A DNA stretch of 30,484 nucleotides from a virus: the IMG/VR virus record IMGVR_UViG_3300043399_000382, positions 1 to 30,484 of that record; one strand, given 5' to 3'. The notes under the pieces were generated by a model. The model searched no databases and was not told where the DNA came from. It saw nothing but the letters and a program-made list of their open reading frames with translations. Positions 901-17,483 of the stretch are shown piece by piece. The stretch's first letter is position 1; every line of letters begins with the position of its first letter. The position numbers were made by a program, and so were the translations under genes.

Positions 901-1635
901 TTACACGCGGCGGCGGCGGCCCGCAGGCGCGTCGGCTGGCGCTTCGGCTCCCACGGTCTCTACCACCCTTGGCTCATCGGCCACGCGCGCTGGCGCGTCG
1001 CCCACGTCTTCCTCGTCGCCATTCATATCAGCCCAGCCCACGATCTCCATCACGGGCGTGTACGTCTTACCATAGCTTGAGTGCTGATAGCTGTCGCTGC
1101 CGATGCGGACGATTGGGAAGACGTGTGCCGACCCCGTGTCGAGCTTGCGCTCCAACTCGCTGAGAACGCCGTCGATGAGGCGAAGGCCGCCCACCGACGT
1201 TGCCGAGTACATCGCCTGTTGGCCCGCGTACTTGCCATCGATCATTTTCAGCTCGAAGGACATCTGATCCTTCCACGTGCAGGTTTTCTGGGTGCGTGGG
1301 TCAACCATTTCTGGAAGGTCATGCACGCCAAGTTTTGGCTGCGTGATCTTCCACATCTCTTCGCCGAGTTTCTCGTTCTTGCCTTCCTTCGGCCCACGGT
1401 CTGTCCAGCAGCTATAGCCGTGCTGGATCGACAGCGGGTTGATGATGGCCTCGGTTCCGTCCGCGATCTGGCTGTCTTGAGCGCCCATCGCCCACTTACC
1501 GTCACGCAGCAGGCGCAGGTACGGCGTGCCGCCTGCCAGTGCTGGCATCGATGCACGGGTCTGAGCCACGCCCGCGCGCAGTGTCTGGTATACGGCCAAG
1601 GTGGCAGCACTTGGTTTTTGGATTTCGGTCGTCAT
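901..1635 (-). CDS. Conserved phage protein, possible single-stranded DNA-binding role
   Basis: This encodes 244 residues starting at the ATG at 1635, preceded by GGAG at 7 bases. An upstream in-frame ATG at 1653 has no Shine-Dalgarno close to it. No catalytic motif is recognised. The middle has aromatic and polar beta-strand-like stretches (WAMGAQDSQ, GYSCWTD, TPVMEIVGWADMNG). The tail is Ala/Glu/Asp-rich and ends in a basic GRRRRV. It lies between the DUF2800 nuclease and the SNF2 helicase, the place usually held by a DUF2815 or gp2.5-like single-stranded DNA-binding protein in related cassettes. A DNA-binding function is therefore an inference from position only; the very C-terminus is basic rather than acidic, unlike gp2.5. 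The coding call is strong because of the start signal, length and operon fit. Confidence 0.85.
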   Translation of the reverse strand: MTTEIQKPSAATLAVYQTLRAGVAQTRASMPALAGGTPYLRLLRDGKWAMGAQDSQIADGTEAIINPLSIQHGYSCWTDRGPKEGKNEKLGEEMWKITQPKLGVHDLPEMVDPRTQKTCTWKDQMSFELKMIDGKYAGQQAMYSATSVGGLRLIDGVLSELERKLDTGSAHVFPIVRIGSDSYQHSSYGKTYTPVMEIVGWADMNGDEEDVGDAPARVADEPRVVETVGAEAPADAPAGRRRRV

Positions 1636-1701
1636 AGTCTTCTCCGTCTTCATAAGGGCGCAGCGCGCCGTACCTCACCACTGGGCAGGTGACACCATTG
1701 C

Positions 1702-2973
1702 CTAGCGCGTTTTCGCGCCAAGTAATTTCTCCGACAGCTCGGCCAGACGTTCTGGCACGCTGCGCGCTGGGCGCGTGATCTGCTCGGTACGCTTGAGCGT
1801 AGTACCGCTGGATGGCGCGCGCTCGACGTAGTGCTTCGGCAGTGCGATGTCGCGCGCCTTTAGCACCTTTTCGATCTGCGTGGGCGATTTCAGTTTGCGC
1901 TCGGCCCACTCGTCCATCCTGATGCGGTGGCGCTTGAAGAACAGCTTCAGCAGGCGCGGCTCCACCGCCCACTTGCGGTTGCCCTCTGGCTTCGCCTGCA
2001 GGCCCCAGCCCGCGATCTTGTTGCCCTGCTCGGCATATGCGTGGGCCTGCGCAAACACCTCATCGACCAGTGGCCCAACCAATTCGGCCATTTCCAGCAA
2101 CTCGGCATAACGCTGCGCCCAGTCAAGGCGATCCTCTGGCGATCCATTCGATGCCGCCTTGGCCTCGTTCAGCTTGGCCAGCTTTTTGCCCAGCTCACCG
2201 AAGGCGTTGATGTGCAGCGGGCAGACTGTCTTGCAGCGCGCAAACGTACACCAGCTCCCCTTGGCGCAGCGCGCATCGTCGGTCTGTGCCTCGGCCACGG
2301 CGGCGTGCAGCTCGGCCACGTAATCCTCGACCCGTGCCACGTCGGTCGTCCATGACTGCACGATGTCGCGCCCCTGCGCCTCATTGGCAGGCTGGATGAT
2401 CACCAGCGTGACTGGCGTGTCATACTGCACCTTACCCAGCCACGTCTTTTCAGTGTTCAGTGCGCCAGCGCCATAGAATAGCAACTGCTTGTTCTCGTCC
2501 GCCGCCACCAAGCCGTGCCCAAATTTCCAGTCGACCACGAAAATCTCATCGCCGCAGCGCCCGATAATGTCCGACGTGCCAAACGCTCCCTTGATCTGGG
2601 GAAACTCCACGCGGCGCTCGACCAGCAGCCGCATCAGCTCGCCGTTTTTGGCCTCTACCTTTGCCACGAAGGCATCAAACGCGGCCAGTGCAGGCTCGCC
2701 CTTCGCGTCCCACAGGGCTTGGTCAACCGTGAACGACCAGCCCTGCGGCGCGGTGAAGGTGTACGGCAGCATGTCAGTCGGCTCGATGCTGTCGCGCAGT
2801 GCCATCGCCATCAGCTCGTGCAAGGCCGTGCCCTCGCGGGCATATACACTGCCGACATCGTTGCGTGGCACAAGTTTTTCCAGCCTATAGCTGGCGGGGC
2901 AGCCAATGCGGCGCGCGGCGGTAGATCCGCCCACCACGTCGCTGTGTTCTTCGGGGGTGATGTGCTGGGTCAT
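1702..2973 (-). CDS. DUF2800-type PD-(D/E)XK nuclease
   Basis: This encodes 423 residues from the ATG at 2973, which has an AGAGGTGA Shine-Dalgarno and overlaps the preceding stop as ATGA. An in-frame GTG at 2991 is less likely. The nuclease core is visible: GTALHE (His52-Glu53), GTSDIIG with Asp135, and VVDWK with Asp148 and Lys150. Together these match the RecB/Cas4-like PD-(D/E)XK fold. A later cysteine group (Cys236, Cys242, Cys247, Cys251, around GSWCTFARC) resembles the metal or iron-sulfur site of Cas4/AddB-type nucleases. DUF2800 proteins recur in phage replication cassettes with family A polymerases and are thought to act as recombination exonucleases; no activity is shown here. Its neighbours are the putative DNA-binding protein downstream and the alpha-CTD-like protein upstream. 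Confidence 0.88.
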   Translation of the reverse strand: MTQHITPEEHSDVVGGSTAARRIGCPASYRLEKLVPRNDVGSVYAREGTALHELMAMALRDSIEPTDMLPYTFTAPQGWSFTVDQALWDAKGEPALAAFDAFVAKVEAKNGELMRLLVERRVEFPQIKGAFGTSDIIGRCGDEIFVVDWKFGHGLVAADENKQLLFYGAGALNTEKTWLGKVQYDTPVTLVIIQPANEAQGRDIVQSWTTDVARVEDYVAELHAAVAEAQTDDARCAKGSWCTFARCKTVCPLHINAFGELGKKLAKLNEAKAASNGSPEDRLDWAQRYAELLEMAELVGPLVDEVFAQAHAYAEQGNKIAGWGLQAKPEGNRKWAVEPRLLKLFFKRHRIRMDEWAERKLKSPTQIEKVLKARDIALPKHYVERAPSSGTTLKRTEQITRPARSVPERLAELSEKLLGAKTR

Positions 2974-3458
2974 AGTGTCACCTCTGGCCACTCGTACATC
3001 GTATTATGTCGCGGGCCAACGCTGCGCTGAAATGGTGTCTCAGTTGGGCTTACGCTCTCCAATGCCTGCCGCAACTCACGCATTCTTTGTGCATCCCTTG
3101 ACACCTTTTCCGCGTCTTCATCGGACAGCAGACTAAGCTGAATTGCCAGCTCACGAATGTATTCGGCCTTCACGCCCAACGACACCGTAGGGTCAGCGTA
3201 AGCGCCCCGTAAAATCTCCTCAATCACTTGGTTGAACCGCGCAAGAGTTTTTTTGCCCATAAAAGGCCACCCCAACATCGCCCGTCTATCTAAGCGCGCA
3301 AGGTCGTCGATGGTCACATTTTCCCACGATTTGATTTTGATCCTAGTCAACCCGTACTCATACGAACCGTCAAAATAATTCATTAAGCAATGTTTCAGCC
3401 GTGCCGAGACGCCGTCGCCCGCGCATCCCCAAACAATATCTTTCGCCATCATGGTCAT
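2970..3458 (-). CDS. Small protein with RNA polymerase alpha-CTD-like region
   Basis: This encodes 162 residues. The ATG at 3458 overlaps the preceding stop as ATGA and follows a GCGGGG stretch. Residues about 37-84 read like the helix-hairpin-helix C-terminal domain of the RNA polymerase alpha subunit: a short hydrophobic strand and helix (GLTRIKIKSWENVTIDDLARL, abbreviated here to its ends GLTRI and DDLARL), then a loop, MGKKTLARF and NQVIEEIL. The GKKTL element corresponds to the GKKSL of alpha-CTD. The rest is charged and helical with no other recognised motif. Base composition is less GC-rich than the neighbours. A host-transcription or DNA-contacting role is an inference from this resemblance. 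A plain DNA-binding HhH protein is the alternative. Confidence 0.8.
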   Translation of the reverse strand: MTMMAKDIVWGCAGDGVSARLKHCLMNYFDGSYEYGLTRIKIKSWENVTIDDLARLDRRAMLGWPFMGKKTLARFNQVIEEILRGAYADPTVSLGVKAEYIRELAIQLSLLSDEDAEKVSRDAQRMRELRQALESVSPTETPFQRSVGPRHNTMYEWPEVTL

Positions 3459-3655
3459 TTCGTAACCCCGCTGTTTTCGCCAACGGCGGGGCCAAGCGCG
3501 GCCATGATGGCCGCCTCGATGATCACGTACTCAGGGCGGCCCGTGAACGACGCGGCGGCCTTCACCCGTGCGCGCGCCTCTGGTGTCAGGAACGTCTTTA
3601 CAGCATCCCGCTGTTGGTCTGCCTCTGGCAGCCTCATTGCATTCAAGTCGATCAT
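3455..3655 (-). CDS. Ribbon-helix-helix (Arc/CopG-like) DNA-binding protein
   Basis: This encodes 66 residues. The ATG at 3655 has GGAG six bases upstream; an ATG at 3667 has no ribosome site. The pattern fits a ribbon-helix-helix protein: strand AVKTFLT (residues 18-24), helix from PEARARVKAAA, a Gly-Arg turn, then helix PEYVIIEAAIMAAL. Such proteins bind palindromic operators as dimers, usually in the major groove through the strand. It is the first gene of the leftward operon, and an 8-bp inverted repeat overlapping its promoter-like -10 lies immediately upstream (3658-3685). Autoregulation, and control of the divergent operon, is a reasonable inference. The family assignment is by pattern alone. 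Confidence 0.75.
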   Translation of the reverse strand: MIDLNAMRLPEADQQRDAVKTFLTPEARARVKAAASFTGRPEYVIIEAAIMAALGPAVGENSGVTK

Positions 3656-3657
3656 GG

Positions 3658-3685
3658 TGTACTCCATAGTGATGTGGGGAGTACA
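3658..3685. promoter_or_regulatory. Candidate operator palindrome at the divergent operon junction
   Basis: TGTACTCC (3658-3665) and GGAGTACA (3678-3685) form a perfect inverted repeat around a 12-base spacer. Each arm supplies the GGAG ribosome site of one of the two divergent first genes (starts at 3655 minus and 3689 plus). The right arm overlaps the -10-like element of the leftward promoter. A dimeric repressor such as the adjacent ribbon-helix-helix protein would fit. Binding is inferred. Confidence 0.6.
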
Positions 3686-3710
3686 TACATGGCACAGCGC
3701 GAAGCGTCAA
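3682..3710 (-). promoter_or_regulatory. Promoter-like sequence for the leftward operon
   Basis: On the minus strand, TTGACG (3710-3705) and TATGTA (3687-3682) are separated by exactly 17 bases. Initiation would fall near 3675, giving a leader of about 20 bases before the ATG at 3655. The element lies inside the start of the divergent VRR-NUC gene. It has the same TTGA-N17-TATG form as the candidates at 9970 and 12523. Confidence 0.5.
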
Positions 3711-3994
3711 TAGAGGAATATTTGCGGCAGCGTGTAGAGGTGCTGGGTGGGGTGTGCATAAAACTATCCCCAGTGGGGTTGCGTGGAGTACCTGATCGTC
3801 TTATAGTGCTGTCAGGGCCGCGCGTGGTGTTCGTCGAGTTAAAGCGACCAGCGGGCGGGGTCATATCAAAACTGCAGCACTGGTGGCGCGCGCGCCTATT
3901 GGCGCTGGGCTGTGAGCATCACTTTATCAAGACGCGGGCCGAGGTGGACGCGCTAATGGGAGGAACGCAAGATGAGAGACAACGACAGGATTGA
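3689..3994 (+). CDS. VRR-NUC domain nuclease
   Basis: This encodes 101 residues from the ATG at 3689, preceded by GGAG at 3678-3681. The small PD-(D/E)XK core of the VRR-NUC family is complete: GVPD with Asp36, VFVELKRP with Glu50 and Lys52, and Gln63 in SKLQHWW. Stand-alone phage VRR-NUC proteins are predicted structure-selective nucleases, for example for branched DNA made during recombination, with dimerisation suggested by their small size. It opens the rightward replication operon. It overlaps the next gene by 23 bases. The reading frame is open further upstream, but the ribosome site and the divergent gene make 3689 the best start. Confidence 0.92.
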   Translation: MAQREASIEEYLRQRVEVLGGVCIKLSPVGLRGVPDRLIVLSGPRVVFVELKRPAGGVISKLQHWWRARLLALGCEHHFIKTRAEVDALMGGTQDERQRQD

Positions 3995-4262
3995 CATAAG
4001 CCAAGATGCGTGGGGCGAAATTTTGACGACCGTCAAGGAGATGTCAGATCGCATTGCTGATTTAATTATCGAGCATGAGCTAGACCCGCGCGCCGCCGTT
4101 GCCTTGGCTGGCGCGATCGCGGGCATGGTTAACGATTTCGCGGAGCCTTGCACATGCAATGGCTGCCTGACCGCCACCATGATGCTAGTTGACGCATTCC
4201 TTACCGATCTGGGCCAGATTGATGTCGATCTAGACACCCTCATGTCGAAGGGACGCGCCTGA
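3972..4262 (+). CDS. Unknown small protein upstream of DNA polymerase
   Basis: This encodes 96 residues from the ATG at 3972, following GGAGGAACGCAAG, a strong ribosome site inside the end of the VRR-NUC gene. Its stop overlaps the polymerase start. The sequence is mostly helical, with an acidic N-terminus, a small Ala-rich hydrophobic helix (AAVALAGAIAGMV) and a CTCNGC cysteine cluster with two close cysteines. No family is recognised. Tight coupling on both sides suggests a replication-associated accessory role, which is inference only. Confidence 0.8.
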   Translation: MRDNDRIDISQDAWGEILTTVKEMSDRIADLIIEHELDPRAAVALAGAIAGMVNDFAEPCTCNGCLTATMMLVDAFLTDLGQIDVDLDTLMSKGRA

Positions 4263-6418
4263 TGTACGACATTGACAATCTGTGTTTCATCGACACCGAG
4301 ACGCTGTCGCGCGCTGACCTAAAGGCCACTGGCATCTACCCATATAGCAGCGACCCTGCCTTTCGGGTTATGATCGTCACATACGCAATAGGCGATGGGC
4401 CTGTGCAAATCTGGAAGCAGGATCGCGCGCACCTCGGCGCGTGGCTGGATTGGAACGACGCGCCCGATGACCTGCTGACGTTTCTGGAACGGGTCGAGGC
4501 GGGCGAGGCTCATTTCGTGGCGTGGAATGCGGCCTTCGACCGCCTCGCCCTGTCGCGCGGCATCAAGGGGTACAGCAACGCCAAGCCTGAGCATTTTATG
4601 GATGCGATGGTGCAGGCCGTGCGCTCGCACCTGCCGCCAGATCTGGCCAGTGCTGGCCGCGTCACGCACGCCGCAATTCAAAAACGGCCCGACGGCAAGC
4701 GCCTGATCCAAAAATTCTGCGTGCCGCCCTTCGCCGACCCTGCCGAGCATCCTGCGGAGTGGGACGCGTTCACGTTGTACGCGCTGGATGACGTCCCGCC
4801 CCTGCGGGCCGTCTGGCAGGCCACCCTGCCCCTGTCGGACTTGGCGTGGCAGCAGTACTGGGCCAGCGAGCATATCAACGACGCGGGCATGCCCGTGGAC
4901 GTGGAGTTTGCCGAGAAGGCGGGCGAGCTGGCCATCGAGAACGCGCGGCGCGCCGACTTCGATATCCACCGCCTCACTGGCGGTGCGATCAAGACCGTCA
5001 ACCAGCACGTGGCGCTGTGCGACTGGGTGGTGGCGCGCATCGGACATATGTCCGAGGCCGTGGCCATCCTGCTGCGCGATGTGGTCGAGGAGCAGGACGA
5101 GGCGGGCGATGGCATCACGCGCCTCGATACGTACTCGCTGGAGCGCAGCCGTGTCGAGGATCTGATCGCGTACATGGAGCGCATCGGCGGCGAGCGCGGC
5201 CTGACTGATGACGAGATCGCGGTGCTTGAGGTGCTGCGCGTCCGCGCCTTCGGCGCATCGGCAACGCCCAAGAAATTCGTCAAGCTGCTGCCGATGGTGT
5301 CCGAGGGCGACCGCCTGCGCGGCCAGTACGTGTACTACGGCGCGGCTGCCACGGGGCGTTTCTCGTCTCGCGGGCTGCAGATCCACAACTTGGCTCGCGC
5401 CACTGTGGGTAAGCAGGACGTGGAGCTGGCCGTCATCGATAAGATCTTGGACGGCGCGTCATACGACGACCTGACGCAATACGGCCCCGTGGGTCGCACC
5501 CTGTCGCGCCTGATCCGCCCCGTGTTCGTCGCCCCTGATGGGTACAAGATGCTGTGGGCGGACTATAGCGCCATCGAGGCGCGCGTCTTGCCGTGGCTCG
5601 GCGAGGCCTTCGGCGCTGGGCCTGTGCTGGATATCTTCCGCGAGAACGATGCCGACCCCTCGCTGCCTGATATCTACAAGCAGCAGGCTGGCTCGATCCT
5701 CAATAAGGATCCCAGAGAGGTGACCAAGGCCGAGCGCCAGAGCCACGGCAAGGTTCCCGTGCTGTCGCTGGGCTTCGGCGGCGGCAAGGGCGCGCTCTTT
5801 GCGATGGCGCGAAACTATGGCGCGTCGTTCACCGACGACGAGGCGGGCGACATCGTGGAAAAGTGGCGCGCGACAAACCCGTGGGCGCGCCGCTATTGGG
5901 ATGATACGTGGGAAGCCGCGATCTGGTGCATGCACAACCACAACCAACTGCGCCCCGTCGGCAGCCGCCTGCACTATGTGTACCTGCCCGACTATATGCA
6001 CGGCACGTTGGCCTGCATCCTGCCCAATGGCGAGCCGCTGCTGTACCCGATGCTGCGCTGGGAGATGCGCGAGCGTAAAGACAAGGCCACGGGCAAGGTC
6101 GAGGTGCGCGAGCAGCTCACCTATCGGCGCGGCTATGGGCGCGCGGCCCTGTGGTACGGAACGCTGGTCGAGAATGCGGTGCAGGCCGTCGCGGGCGCTA
6201 TCCTCAAGAATGCGCTCTTGTGCCTGCACCAGACCAACCCACAACTGGTGGTGGGTCACACTCACGATGAGGTCATCGCCCTGTGCCCGACACCAGATGT
6301 AGCGGATGGCCGCGCCGCGCTCGTGCGTGCTATGCTGGCCCTTCCCGACTGGGCTGGAGGGCTGCCGATGACGTGTGAGGCCAGCGAGAGCTTCTATTAT
6401 ACCAAAACAATCGACTGA
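4262..6418 (+). CDS. Family A DNA polymerase with 3'-5' exonuclease domain
   Basis: This encodes 718 residues, the usual size of phage polymerases that lack the 5' nuclease. The N-terminal proofreading domain shows Exo I IDTET (Asp11, Glu13), Exo II WNAAFD (Asp93) and Exo III YALDD (Tyr173, Asp176/177). The polymerase domain shows motif A ADYSAIEAR with Asp434, a motif B region RQSHGKVPVLSLGFGGG, and motif C HTHDEV with Asp669. All catalytic acids are present, so the enzyme should be active. It replicates the phage genome together with the primase-helicase encoded 11 bases downstream. The start at 4262 overlaps the preceding stop in TGATG. The motif B lysine spacing differs from Pol I, as is common in this phage subgroup. 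Confidence 0.96.
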   Translation: MYDIDNLCFIDTETLSRADLKATGIYPYSSDPAFRVMIVTYAIGDGPVQIWKQDRAHLGAWLDWNDAPDDLLTFLERVEAGEAHFVAWNAAFDRLALSRGIKGYSNAKPEHFMDAMVQAVRSHLPPDLASAGRVTHAAIQKRPDGKRLIQKFCVPPFADPAEHPAEWDAFTLYALDDVPPLRAVWQATLPLSDLAWQQYWASEHINDAGMPVDVEFAEKAGELAIENARRADFDIHRLTGGAIKTVNQHVALCDWVVARIGHMSEAVAILLRDVVEEQDEAGDGITRLDTYSLERSRVEDLIAYMERIGGERGLTDDEIAVLEVLRVRAFGASATPKKFVKLLPMVSEGDRLRGQYVYYGAAATGRFSSRGLQIHNLARATVGKQDVELAVIDKILDGASYDDLTQYGPVGRTLSRLIRPVFVAPDGYKMLWADYSAIEARVLPWLGEAFGAGPVLDIFRENDADPSLPDIYKQQAGSILNKDPREVTKAERQSHGKVPVLSLGFGGGKGALFAMARNYGASFTDDEAGDIVEKWRATNPWARRYWDDTWEAAIWCMHNHNQLRPVGSRLHYVYLPDYMHGTLACILPNGEPLLYPMLRWEMRERKDKATGKVEVREQLTYRRGYGRAALWYGTLVENAVQAVAGAILKNALLCLHQTNPQLVVGHTHDEVIALCPTPDVADGRAALVRAMLALPDWAGGLPMTCEASESFYYTKTID

Positions 6419-6429
6419 GGGGTGGAACC

Positions 6430-8925
6430 ATGGATCGTGATCAAGAAATACGGCAGCAGACGGCGTTGCGCCGCGCCATGCTGCGCAATGGGTATACCCC
6501 ATTGGCAAACAAGGATAAGGGATGCATCCTAAAAGGTTGGCCCAATCTGGCTGTCGACGAATACCAAATTGACGTGTGGTCTGACCAGCTCAGGTGGCGG
6601 GCCACGGGCGTGCGCATCGAGCGCGGGCTGGTGGCGATTGATTTGGATATCAACGACAACGCGGCCATCTGGGATATCATTGACGCGCTTCCTAACGACA
6701 TCTGGGAGCTGCTATCGAATGCGCCCGTGCGGCTGGGCAAGGGGGCCAAGGAGTGCTGGTTCTGCCGCCTCGCCGAGGGCGAGAGTAGCTTCTACCGCCT
6801 GACCTCGGCGGGGTATCGCATGCCCGACGACGCTGACGATGGTGTCGTCCACCGCGTCGAGATCTTCGCGGGCGAGACGGGGCGACAGTTTGGCGTGTAC
6901 GGCGCGCACACCATCGGCCACGATGGCGAGGTCGAGGTGGCCTACCGCTGGGTCGATGATCGCGGGCTGGCCGATGTGCCATTCGACGATCTGCCGCGCC
7001 TGACGCGCGCGCAGCTTGCCGTGGTGGCCGACACCGCGTCGCGTGTGATGGCCGATGCGGGCTGGGTCAATGATGCCCAGTCAAAGGCGGGCTTTACCTC
7101 ACCAAGCGTGGTGTATGATCTGGACGATCAGGTTTTTGATACGCGCGACCACGGCACTGTCGATCTAGAGCAGCTAGAGGTATTGGCTGCCGAGAATGAC
7201 AACGTGCGCCTGTCCGCATCGTGGCTGGAAGGGCCGAGCGCGGCCAACACCACGCGCTGCATCGCCTATATCAACCGCAGCGACAATCGCGTGGCGATCT
7301 TGGAGACGGCGGCGTACACGACGCACCGCCCAGTCTCGCTGCAGCCCAAGCCCCTGAACACTGGCGCGCTGGATCGCCTAGAAGCACTGGCGGGCGGTAG
7401 CACGCTGTTTGACAAGCCTGCGCCAGCGCCTGCCGCCGAGAGCGCGCAGGTGGGCATCGACATGCGCGACGACATGGAGCGCGTCGTCGATCACCTGATC
7501 GGCGAGGTGGCCTTTTGCGCCAATGAGCAGAAGTGTGTCATGCCGATTGATGGCGATGCCTCGCAGGCCATGACCATGGCCAACTTCCGCGTGCTGATGC
7601 AGCCCAGCGCCGTCGAGGTGCGCGGCCCGCGCGGCGGATCTCAGATCATACACCCCGTGTCTCTGTGGGCCAGCGACCCGCGCCGCATCGACGTGAATGG
7701 CCACCGCTTCCGCCCCGATCTGGCGGGGCAGCGGCTGTTTATCGAGGACGGCGCGCGGTACATCAACACGTACCGCCCCATCGATCACGTCCCCGTGAGC
7801 GATGCGCAGGTGGCGGCGGCTGGGCGTGCCTTCGAGGCGCTGCTGTCACACCTCGTGCCGCACGACGAGGCGCGTGCGTGGTTCCGCATGTGGCTGGCCA
7901 GCAAGATACAATACCCTGCCACGCCCAACTGCGGCGTGATCATGGTGGCCGAGATCCAAGGCACTGGCCGCGGCACGCTGTTCGATATGATGTCAGCGGC
8001 GCTGGGCCAGAAGTACGTGCGCAACATCAGCAGCACTGAGCTGATGGGCGGGCAGGGGCAGGGCCAGTACAACGACTGGATCGCCAACGCCCTGCTGGTG
8101 CTGTGCGAGGAAGTCATGGCGGGCGATGACGCGGGCGGCGCAATGGCGTGGAAGCGCCGCGAGGTGTACGAGCGCCTCAAGCAGCTTGTCGACCCGCGCC
8201 AGCGCGTCATGGAGATCCGCCGCAAGGGCCTGAGCAATTACTCGTCAGAGGTCTTCGCGTCGATCCTGATGGCCACCAACCACATGAACGCCCTGCCGCT
8301 GGACGAGACTGACCGCCGCATCGCCGTGCTGGTGCAGCCGAACATCAAGTTTGATGACGTGCCCGAATTGGTGCGCCTGATCAATCCGATGCGCGCCAGC
8401 GGGCGGTACGTGCCGTGGTTCGGCGCTGGGCTGGCCGCGTACCTGAGCGGCGTGGCCGTTGACACCTCGGCCCTGCGCATCGCGCCAGAACTGGGCGATG
8501 GCCGCGCATTGATGCGTGAGAGCAACCTCAGCGATCTGGATCACATCTTGGCCGAGGTGCTGGATGACATCCCCGCCGACTTCATTGGCAACGCGGCGCT
8601 CAAGCGCCGCCTCGCCAATGCCCTGACGGCGGCGGGCGAGATCGACAGCATGCGAAACTGGTGGATGCGCGCGCAGGACATCTTGAAGCGGCCAAACGGT
8701 ACGGGCTGGGCGCGCATGGGCACGCGACAAGTGACGGGCGGCAATGCCAACAAGCGAACCTTCGAGAATGTATTGTACCGAATCGATGGGGCGGGTCTGG
8801 ATAAGTGGGCGATGATGACGTGGGAAGAGCGGGCCGTGGTTATGGCGCGGGCCAATGACGCCAACGATATCGCCACGCGCATCGATCGCGGCCTGCGTGA
8901 CCACGGCATTCACGGCGTGACTTGA
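6430..8925 (+). CDS. Primase-polymerase fused to SF3 (DUF5906-type) helicase
   Basis: This encodes 831 residues with two modules. Residues about 10-200 resemble an AEP prim-pol domain: VAIDLDIND carries the metal-binding Asp71 and Asp73, and EIFAGETGRQFGVYGAH matches the conserved later strand with its histidine. The C-terminal half matches DUF5906-type superfamily 3 helicases: EIQGTGRGTLF (P-loop), LLVLCEEVM (Walker B), and ILMATNHMNALPL (sensor 1 asparagine), followed by RRIAVL. The P-loop lysine is replaced by Arg514, which is odd for an ATPase. The protein should prime and unwind at the fork beside the polymerase. GGGTGGAACC precedes the ATG. It is the last gene of the rightward replication operon, and a terminator follows at 9005-9040. 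Confidence 0.92.
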   Translation: MDRDQEIRQQTALRRAMLRNGYTPLANKDKGCILKGWPNLAVDEYQIDVWSDQLRWRATGVRIERGLVAIDLDINDNAAIWDIIDALPNDIWELLSNAPVRLGKGAKECWFCRLAEGESSFYRLTSAGYRMPDDADDGVVHRVEIFAGETGRQFGVYGAHTIGHDGEVEVAYRWVDDRGLADVPFDDLPRLTRAQLAVVADTASRVMADAGWVNDAQSKAGFTSPSVVYDLDDQVFDTRDHGTVDLEQLEVLAAENDNVRLSASWLEGPSAANTTRCIAYINRSDNRVAILETAAYTTHRPVSLQPKPLNTGALDRLEALAGGSTLFDKPAPAPAAESAQVGIDMRDDMERVVDHLIGEVAFCANEQKCVMPIDGDASQAMTMANFRVLMQPSAVEVRGPRGGSQIIHPVSLWASDPRRIDVNGHRFRPDLAGQRLFIEDGARYINTYRPIDHVPVSDAQVAAAGRAFEALLSHLVPHDEARAWFRMWLASKIQYPATPNCGVIMVAEIQGTGRGTLFDMMSAALGQKYVRNISSTELMGGQGQGQYNDWIANALLVLCEEVMAGDDAGGAMAWKRREVYERLKQLVDPRQRVMEIRRKGLSNYSSEVFASILMATNHMNALPLDETDRRIAVLVQPNIKFDDVPELVRLINPMRASGRYVPWFGAGLAAYLSGVAVDTSALRIAPELGDGRALMRESNLSDLDHILAEVLDDIPADFIGNAALKRRLANALTAAGEIDSMRNWWMRAQDILKRPNGTGWARMGTRQVTGGNANKRTFENVLYRIDGAGLDKWAMMTWEERAVVMARANDANDIATRIDRGLRDHGIHGVT

Positions 8926-9041: not shown

Positions 9042-9243
9042 CCGTAACACGTGCCTAATCTACGCCCCGTTTCCACATGGGCGGATGTTACGGCTGGGGC
9101 GCTAACATCGCGCCGCCAGAGGTCTTGCCGTAACATCGGTAACACGCGGTTGCGGTACATATTTGGTGCATGTTACGGCGCGTGTTACGGGGTTAAGTGC
9201 CTGATTTACATGGCTTAATCATTAGCCGTAACATCCGTAACAT
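9042..9243. repeat. Iteron cluster, seven exact CCGTAACA copies
   Basis: Exact copies of CCGTAACA lie at 9042-9049, 9128-9135, 9226-9233 and 9235-9242. Inverted copies (TGTTACGG) lie at 9086-9093, 9171-9178 and 9183-9190. Near-copies are visible at 9101-9109, 9137-9145 and 9339-9345. Several pairs are adjacent, which suggests cooperative binding by a replication initiator or regulator. The binding protein is unknown. Confidence 0.8.
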
Positions 9244-9320: not shown

Positions 9321-9490
9321 GGCGGTAGGGAATCGGCGTGTTACGTGTAACGGCTGATGCGGGTGACCCCGCGTGGCGCGCGGCGGTCTCGCAGCGCGGG
9401 CGGGGCCGACAACCGTGAGATCGCCAGCATCGAGAGCGCCGCGTGGTAAACTTGCCGTGTAACGCGACCACGTGGCATGATCACGCAGCG

Positions 9491-9577
9491 CGTGCCGACC
9501 TGATCGTGCCACGCGCCACGTGCCACGTGCCGACTTGATCGTGCCACGCAGCACGTTCCGACTTGATCGTGCCACGT
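9491..9577. repeat. Three 24-bp direct repeats with core TGATCGTGCCACG
   Basis: Units at 9491-9514, 9526-9549 and 9554-9577 differ from one another at only one to three positions. The starts are 35 and 28 bases apart. Each contains CCGACYTGATCGTGCCACG. Inverted near half-copies (GGCATGATCA at 9475-9484 and GGCACAATCA at 9648-9657) flank the array. These are likely protein-binding sites, separate from the CCGTAACA set. Confidence 0.75.
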
Positions 9578-9751
9578 ACCACGAAAACCTCTCTGCGAGG
9601 CACGCCGCCGCTCACGCGCGCGTGCGACGGCTCGATCGGTGCGTCAAGGCACAATCAACGTCTCGGTGTGCGTCCATGCACGTATCACGCAGCACGATGC
9701 ACCTGATCGGTAGCATGATATCGAGGGCTGTATCGTAAGCCATTGATATCA

Positions 9752-16763: not shown

Positions 16764-17483
16764 ATGGCGCTGTACCGTGGCGCGTATGGATTAAAGGCAT
16801 ATGGCATCGAGGCGTACGGCCTCGATGGCACGATCTTTGATGCCGCAGCCACGGCTGTCGCCGCCAGCGCGGCCACGGGGGCCGCCCAGCGCGTCAGGAT
16901 TGCGGCAGCAGCGGCGGCGGCCACCAGCGCCGCGACCACTGCCGCCCAGCGCATAAAACTGGCCGCAGCCACGGCAGCGGCCACCAGCACCGCCAGCGCG
17001 GCTGTCGTCACTCTAATCAACGCAGCGGCGGCCACCACGGCCACCAGCGCGGCCACGGGGGCCGCCCAGCGCGTGCAGCAGCCCAGCGCGGCGGCGGCAT
17101 CGGTCAGCGCGGCCACGGGGGCCGCCCAGCGCGTGCAGCAGCCCAGCGCCAACACGACAGGCCAGAGCAGTGTCACATCCCGCGCCGAGGCGGTGTACGA
17201 GGACAGCGCCAGCGTTGCGGGGCAGAGCGCGGCTGACGCGCGCGTGGTGCGAGTTTTCTCCACTGGCGCGAATGCCTCGGCATCTGCTATAGTATCGATC
17301 AAGGCCATCCTGAAATGGGAGGGCGCGACACCGCAGGCCGAGAACTGGACAGCGCAGGGCGCTACAGCCGAGGACTGGATAGCCGAGACAGCCGACGGCG
17401 CGGCATGGTCGCCGCAGGCGGCGCAGGGCGAAACTTGGACAACCGAAACCGCGTCGAGTGAGACGTGGACGCGGGCAGCTTGA
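16764..17483 (+). CDS. Alanine-rich tandem-repeat virion protein with Trp-repeat tail
   Basis: This encodes 239 residues in three parts. The N-terminus has short AYGL/AYGI/AYGL repeats. Then come seven 20-residue units (bases 16860-17279), best seen as ATSAATGAAQRVQQ followed by PSAAAA; the last two units have diverged. The C-terminus has six tryptophans (residues 185 to 235) exactly ten residues apart. The composition suggests an extended fibrous or coiled structure. Its place between a minor virion protein and the tail fibre suggests a tail or fibre-linking part. I recognise no family for the whole. The start has only a weak AAGG upstream and probably relies on coupling. Confidence 0.8.
   Translation: MALYRGAYGLKAYGIEAYGLDGTIFDAAATAVAASAATGAAQRVRIAAAAAAATSAATTAAQRIKLAAATAAATSTASAAVVTLINAAAATTATSAATGAAQRVQQPSAAAASVSAATGAAQRVQQPSANTTGQSSVTSRAEAVYEDSASVAGQSAADARVVRVFSTGANASASAIVSIKAILKWEGATPQAENWTAQGATAEDWIAETADGAAWSPQAAQGETWTTETASSETWTRAA
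16860..17279 (+). repeat. Seven 60-bp in-frame tandem units
   Basis: The units start at 16860, 16920, 16980, 17040, 17100, 17160 and 17220. The fourth and fifth units share a 45-base identical block (17045-17089 and 17105-17149), and 30 bases of it recur at 16865-16894. This points to recent duplication within an older array. Confidence 0.85.

Follow-up and report, generated by a model that had tools for sequence, protein, structure and literature searches.

A predicted leftward promoter linked to a small regulator gene, and a possible face-to-face promoter switch, at a divergent gene junction of an environmental phage

Two gene sets diverge at start codons 3655 (minus strand) and 3689 (plus strand) of an IMG/VR virus record of 30,484 bases, the whole of which is referred to here as the window. 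The junction between them appears to be a compact variant of the known face-to-face promoter switch, with one well-supported promoter, one suggested promoter and a putative regulator of the ribbon-helix-helix (RHH) type. We place the probability at about 0.6 that two interlocked sigma-70-type promoters facing each other, together with an RHH regulator, jointly explain the arrangement. Comparison with relatives shows that the predicted leftward promoter is conserved and linked to the RHH gene, and polymerases would be expected to compete at the junction. The initial annotation of this DNA was partly confirmed, the promoter being its most informative part and the palindrome its least. Here, synonymous codon conservation appears to expose a promoter that is hidden in coding sequence and occurs where a small regulator gene is present. 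Should the two starts prove to coincide, the junction would also be a minimal natural system for measuring polymerase competition, and would likely control the timing of replication genes in a group of environmental phages.

Gene layout and the RHH-like protein

The divergent layout described in the initial annotation was recovered, with every element that it named lying where it had been placed (Table 1). The gap between the start codons is 33 nt, and the RHH-like ORF starts at the ATG at 3655-3653, with an additional in-frame ATG at 3667. The leftward set also includes a frame with a helicase-like motif, recognised by eye, that runs off the left end of the window. For the first rightward gene, the VRR-NUC label is taken from the annotation of matching phage records, and a Pfam search of the 101-aa product gave no match above cut-off. 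The minimum of the cumulative GC skew lies at the divergent junction (window 3000-5000).

Table 1. Features at and around the divergent junction (window coordinates; promoters and start sites are predicted)
Feature	Position	Strand	Basis or remark
phrog_9528 protein	901-1653	-	leftward set; the whole further leftward block spans 901..3458
DUF2800 / PD-(D/E)XK exonuclease-like protein	1702-2991	-	leftward set
162-aa protein	2970-3458	-	behind the RHH gene in the leftward set
First leftward gene, RHH-like protein, 66 aa	3455..3655	-	ORF; RHH families matched by the homologues at this position in L042 and L030, and weakly by profile and structure comparison
Candidate rightward promoter	3637..3665	+	TTGCAT 3637-3642, spacer 17, TACTCC 3660-3665, predicted start ~3672
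8-bp inverted repeat, 12-nt core	3658..3685	.	includes the two ribosome sites and a part of each -10 element; not conserved
Ribosome site GGAG, leftward gene	3662..3665	-	6 nt before ATG 3655
Ribosome site GGAG, rightward gene	3678..3681	+	7 nt before ATG 3689
Leftward promoter	3682..3710	-	TTGACG 3710-3705, 17-nt spacer, TATGTA 3687-3682, predicted start ~3675
First rightward gene, endonuclease, 101 aa	3689..3994	+	phrog_93, E 5e-20
96-aa protein	within 3972..8925	+	follows the 101-aa endonuclease
DNA polymerase A	4262-6418	+	rightward set
Primase	6430-8925	+	rightward set

The 66-aa product of the first leftward gene has no significant family match of its own, Pfam included. The description of this protein as RHH-like was nevertheless supported by its positional homologues and by weak profile and structure matches. 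The homologue at locus L042 matches RHH_1 with 26.6 bits (cut-off 20.5), and that at L030 falls below the cut-offs for ParG (21.1 against 21.4) and RHH_3 (20.7 against 21.6) and matches the Arc-like repressor family phrog_3180 with an E of 2.5e-4. A profile of seven sequences gives weak matches, along the same region, to the RHH domains of VapB26 (E 0.09) and PutA (E 0.31). In a monomer model with a mean pLDDT of 76, helices are assigned to residues 25-38 and 42-54 and no strand is assigned; the best-ranked PDB entries for this model are mostly RHH proteins, at values that are not significant (E 0.6-3, Z up to 5.0). Sequence and model together indicate that the 66-aa protein is likely to be an RHH protein. 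Its place as the first gene behind the promoter suggests that it may bind the junction and repress its own synthesis.

A predicted leftward promoter that accompanies the RHH gene

The sequence TTGACG-N17-TATGTA, which the initial annotation had proposed as a leftward promoter, is present on the minus strand, with its -10 element overlapping the right arm of the inverted repeat by 4 nt. It had been placed inside the opening codons of the rightward gene, which is correct for the -35 element and the spacer; the -10 element is sited in the leader. On the window alone this predicted promoter is not above chance, and it becomes significant only by comparison with relatives. For instance, a generic sigma-70 scan of the window found one site against 1.3 expected, and did not list the leftward promoter, which has 8 of 12 consensus matches and lacks the final T. 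The pattern TTGACG-N17-TATNT occurs once in the window where 0.02 occurrences are expected, although it was derived from that very site. The -10 element is likewise poor against the E. coli standard. More than 60% of alphaproteobacterial sigma-70 promoters are reported to lack the -7T (PMC8407463), and the leftward -10 element, without its final T, would fit promoters of this kind. An alphaproteobacterial host is only hinted at, by a terminase match to Sinorhizobium phage phiM5 (53.7%). Among named records, the nearest replication genes are those of Nostoc and Microcystis phages, where the same junction is found.

Across relatives, TTGAC-N17-TA is found at the same place in all nine loci with a divergent RHH-like gene, the window included, and these loci represent four lineages. 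The minus-strand sequence is TTGACG-17-TATGTA in the window, L002 and L014, TTGACG-17-TATGTT in L003 and L025, TTGACG-17-TATCCT in L016 and L017, TTGACT-17-TATGTC in L005 (on the same contig as L042), and TTGACA-17-TATATC in L030. Leftward, a TTG at -35, a TA at -12/-11 and a spacer of about 17 nt are present in 9/9 RHH loci, the final T being optional in the alphaproteobacterial form of the sigma-70 promoter (PMC8407463). The comparison supports the initial annotation in its account of a compact divergent junction with the leftward -35 element inside the first codons of the rightward gene.

The promoter goes with the RHH gene rather than with the nuclease. One collection search gave 80 loci, 79 of which entered the count of nuclease contexts, and merging of near-duplicates left 66 distinct contexts, six of them with an RHH gene. 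The promoter is found in 6/6 contexts with the RHH gene and in 0/60 without it. The window, L016 and L017 were assessed apart from these 66 contexts, and all three carry TTGAC-N17-TA; contig 3300035670_000550 (L022, L027), which is broken at the junction, was left out. L031, which is among the 60 without RHH, does carry a TTGAC-N18-TA, but in another part of the surveyed stretch and not at the site. When 865 upstream frames were searched with a profile, RHH proteins turned up only in the six RHH-bearing contexts. No promoter is present in L028, L029, L034, L038, L041 and L050, non-RHH loci in which a DUF2800-like gene, identified by eye from the start of its product, diverges beside the nuclease. 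In a nuclease tree of 43 rows, selected from the surveyed loci and not comprising all of them, the RHH-bearing loci occupy three separate positions. The well-supported branches require three or more changes in RHH presence, for which a single gain with two losses would be a possible history. At each change in presence, the promoter goes with the RHH gene.

Genome contigs were also scanned directly. An RHH alignment recovered no relative, a nuclease alignment recovered 8 loci, and a pattern scan for nucleases with TCAATAGA recovered 42 stretches. Besides RHH loci that already formed part of the count, the plausible nuclease frames from the pattern scan (L117, L128, L130, L131, L136, L138, L139 and L141) are without TTGAC-N17-TA.

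The leftward -35 element coincides with nuclease codons 6-8 (xxG TCA ATA), and the codons TCA and ATA at positions 7 and 8 are invariant in 7/7 nucleases tested. Both are rare in these genomes, with a usage of 0% and 1.6%, respectively, in L016 and of 0% and 5.3% in L042. Only three of the 23 protein-invariant nuclease columns are also codon-invariant, the third, besides TCA and ATA, being the common codon CAG; in the four-lineage set, there is one further codon-invariant nuclease codon, Gly 91 (GGA). Naive probabilities for this codon conservation are about 1e-10 and 1e-9, but these are overstated and not to be taken literally, because the S-I-E residues are also conserved at the protein level and the relatives share descent. 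Invariance in 7/7 extends to the last base of codon 8 (the A of ATA, window 3712), which lies outside the -35 hexamer.

TCAATAGA was also considered as a binding site for the RHH protein, since it is quasi-symmetric, and was rejected. The presumed contact positions of the RHH strand, which we take to follow the Arc/CopG register, have residues that vary between lineages, whereas the element is constant; for this reason, sigma factor would be the likelier reader of TCAATAGA.

The rightward promoter and competing readings of the junction

A rightward promoter is suggested by sequence comparison. In eight of the nine loci, the 85 nt ahead of the nuclease start contain a single TTG-N16..18-TA match, always as TTGC[ACG]T with a spacer of 17. 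By comparison, 1.7-9.6% of 81-nt segments taken from these contigs have a match of this kind. The -35 element of this candidate uses RHH codon 6, GCA, in the window's group and in L016 and L017; GCA is rare, and invariant in the five tested. In L030 the site is in non-coding DNA and has a good -10 element (TAGAAT). The case goes no further than suggestion because L042 has no such site in the corresponding 85 nt, and because the very poor -10 element of the window coincides with the leftward ribosome site. Of the face-to-face pair, then, the leftward member is well supported, and the rightward member is found in 8/9 loci with a poor -10 element.

According to the initial annotation, transcription to the right had to begin within the leftward gene. 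This does not follow, as a message that includes the ribosome site need only begin no later than about 3676, and the start of the best candidate, at about 3672, is in the gap. The antisense overlap of the two messages that it had envisaged is retained in a much reduced form, with an overlap of only about 4 nt predicted from the candidate starts at 3675 and 3672.

In the mechanism we propose, two sigma-70-type promoters would face each other and interlock across about 75 bp. Transcription of the RHH gene, and of the DNA-processing genes that follow, would come from the leftward promoter (3710-3682), whose -10 element adjoins the ribosome site of the VRR-NUC-like gene; the rightward promoter (3637-3665), with its -35 element in RHH codons ~5-7, would drive the nuclease, polymerase and primase. 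With predicted starts at ~3675 and ~3672, the open complexes would overlap and transcription in one direction would occlude the other; two polymerases could not occupy both promoters, resulting in mutual exclusion. The RHH protein would most likely bind at the junction, repress its own promoter and tune the balance. A more far-reaching form of this mechanism is put forward only tentatively, as less likely than not. It would treat the RHH gene, the leftward promoter and the opening codons of the nuclease as a single evolving unit with a reciprocal overlap, in which the opening codons of each gene serve as the -35 region of the other. Some 75 bp would then combine protein code, ribosome sites, both promoters and an RHH operator, in phages whose nucleases are as little as ~40% identical. 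Starts within a few bases of each other would form a polymerase-competition switch between DNA-processing and DNA-synthesis genes, and the operator would include the last base of nuclease codon 8.

The initial annotation had instead centred the switch on the palindrome, as the operator of the RHH protein. The perfect 8-bp inverted repeat with its 12-base core, and a GGAG ribosome site in each arm, is present as described: the arms, TGTACTCC (3658-3665) and GGAGTACA (3678-3685), are complementary at 8/8 positions. A perfect 8-bp repeat with a loop of at most 20 has a probability of 0.0045 in a random 33-nt gap, but this rises to 0.022 when both GGAG sites are fixed, since ribosome sites in divergent orientation are by default reverse complements of one another. 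The window has 33 start positions of such repeats, and the repeat is unusual, slightly above chance and not decisive. It is kept in L002, and its left part, GTACTCC, is kept in 5/5 members of the window's group, beyond what GGAG would need. However, the right arm is altered to GGGGAACA in L003, AAGGAACA in L025 and GGAGGTACA in L014, even though the RHH proteins of these loci are 66-74% identical to that of the window, and the word GGAGTAC is absent from the more distant junctions of L016, L017, L042 and L030. Thus the palindrome is not a conserved operator, and its role as the centre of a bidirectional switch is unlikely; it probably consists mostly of the two ribosome sites, packed together with portions of the -10 elements.

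The word GGAGTAC itself is the only 7-mer repeated in all four junctions compared, but it was rejected as an operator since shared repeated 7-mers are equally found in 21 of 35 control windows from the polymerase gene. A third copy at 3785-3791, in the rare nuclease codons 33-34 (GGA GTA), is kept in all five group members, which could be read in favour of the palindrome and is not above the control. A second conserved block, GGGGTGTGTATAAAACTATCCCC, was dropped because it is broken in L025. No operator was found at the junction of the window and its relatives.

It is also conceivable, though quite improbable, that there is no leftward promoter, that TCA and ATA are kept for reasons of protein sequence or early-codon choice, and that both operons are read from elsewhere. 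A+T-rich early codons are a general tendency, S-I-E is conserved in the aligned relatives, and the invariance of the third base of codon 8 may mean that something besides the hexamer is kept. None of this accounts readily for the absence of TTGAC at the site from all 60 non-RHH contexts, or for the absence of TCA-ATA at the place of nuclease codons 7-8 among the non-RHH homologues. Moreover, codons vary at the other 20 of the 23 protein-invariant columns, and the TA is found at exactly 17 nt in 9/9 RHH loci, mostly beyond the coding sequence.

Control at the RNA level, whereby a hairpin formed by the repeat in the rightward message would hide the ribosome site, was rejected as very improbable: the window gap does fold at -13.1 kcal/mol with GGAG in the stem, but against shuffles with fixed ribosome sites only the window stands out (P 0.036; 0.26 in L003, 0.59 in L025, 0.82 in L014, 0.84 in L016, 0.18 in L030, and no structure in L042), and a rightward start at ~3672 would leave the left arm outside the message.

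Relation to known systems and other features of the window

The proposed interlocked promoter pair with an RHH regulator resembles several described systems in part. Arc/CopG-type RHH autorepressors share with it a small RHH-like protein, the model of which matches Arc and CopG at non-significant scores, encoded by the first gene behind a promoter that it probably controls. The differences are that no operator was found here, that Pfam does not recognise the window protein, and that its role as a regulator is a prediction from its place as first gene. The regulator of the scbA-scbR pair of Streptomyces coelicolor belongs to a family other than RHH. In that pair, convergent promoters are described for genes arranged head to head, the 5' ends of whose transcripts overlap, with a regulator on one side, as here, but the overlap is given as 53 bp (PMC3134472) against the ~4 nt predicted for the window.

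The lytic and lysogenic promoters of P2-like phages and phage 186, with Apl/Cox, are likewise described as face to face, with a small DNA-binding regulator and directional interference (PMC7498355). In those phages the promoters are reported to be 40-60 bp apart with operators between them (PMC7498355), whereas the starts predicted here overlap by ~4 nt, each -35 element is in the other gene, and no lysogeny genes are implied. Overlapping opposite promoters, one of which drives the gene of the regulator itself, are also described for Pr/Pc of pLS20 (PMC4207663). There the -10 and -35 boxes coincide and the regulator, RcoLS20, is a tetrameric looping regulator of conjugation (PMC4207663), whereas the promoters here face each other and no second operator is known. 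In the symmetric bidirectional promoters of E. coli, as at this junction, one polymerase binding event would exclude the other (PMC12825309); those promoters are described as pseudo-symmetric and transcribe apart (PMC12825309), whereas the two separate promoters here point together. Novel here are predicted starts that nearly coincide and promoters that each draw on codons of the opposite gene. A literature search for this module returned no description, which does not prove that there is none.

Gene content behind the junction is not constant. In L003 (4286-4732) and L014 (5233-5694), the gene behind the RHH gene encodes an unrelated MFGxLK... protein, TerB-like by eye, in place of the window's 162-aa protein, an exchange of the second leftward gene that has left the RHH gene and the promoter in place.

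Rfam and tRNA searches gave nothing relevant to the junction. Elsewhere in the window, ARAGORN reports a minus-strand tRNA-Ile (anticodon TAT) at 16916-16983, a call that is probably false and that falls within a long alanine-rich ORF of the plus strand. The 1.1-kb non-coding gap between the primase and terminase genes holds three head-to-tail units of 39 nt at 9482-9583, 82-87% alike and of the CACGCAGC-CGTGCCGAC-TGATCGTGCCACG type. In the same gap, the 8-mer CCGTAACA occurs seven times, all of its copies in the window being inside the 200 bases of 9042-9242, in both orientations and with many pairs ~43-44 bp apart. This cluster is iteron-like, and perhaps represents a replication origin or a set of regulator sites.
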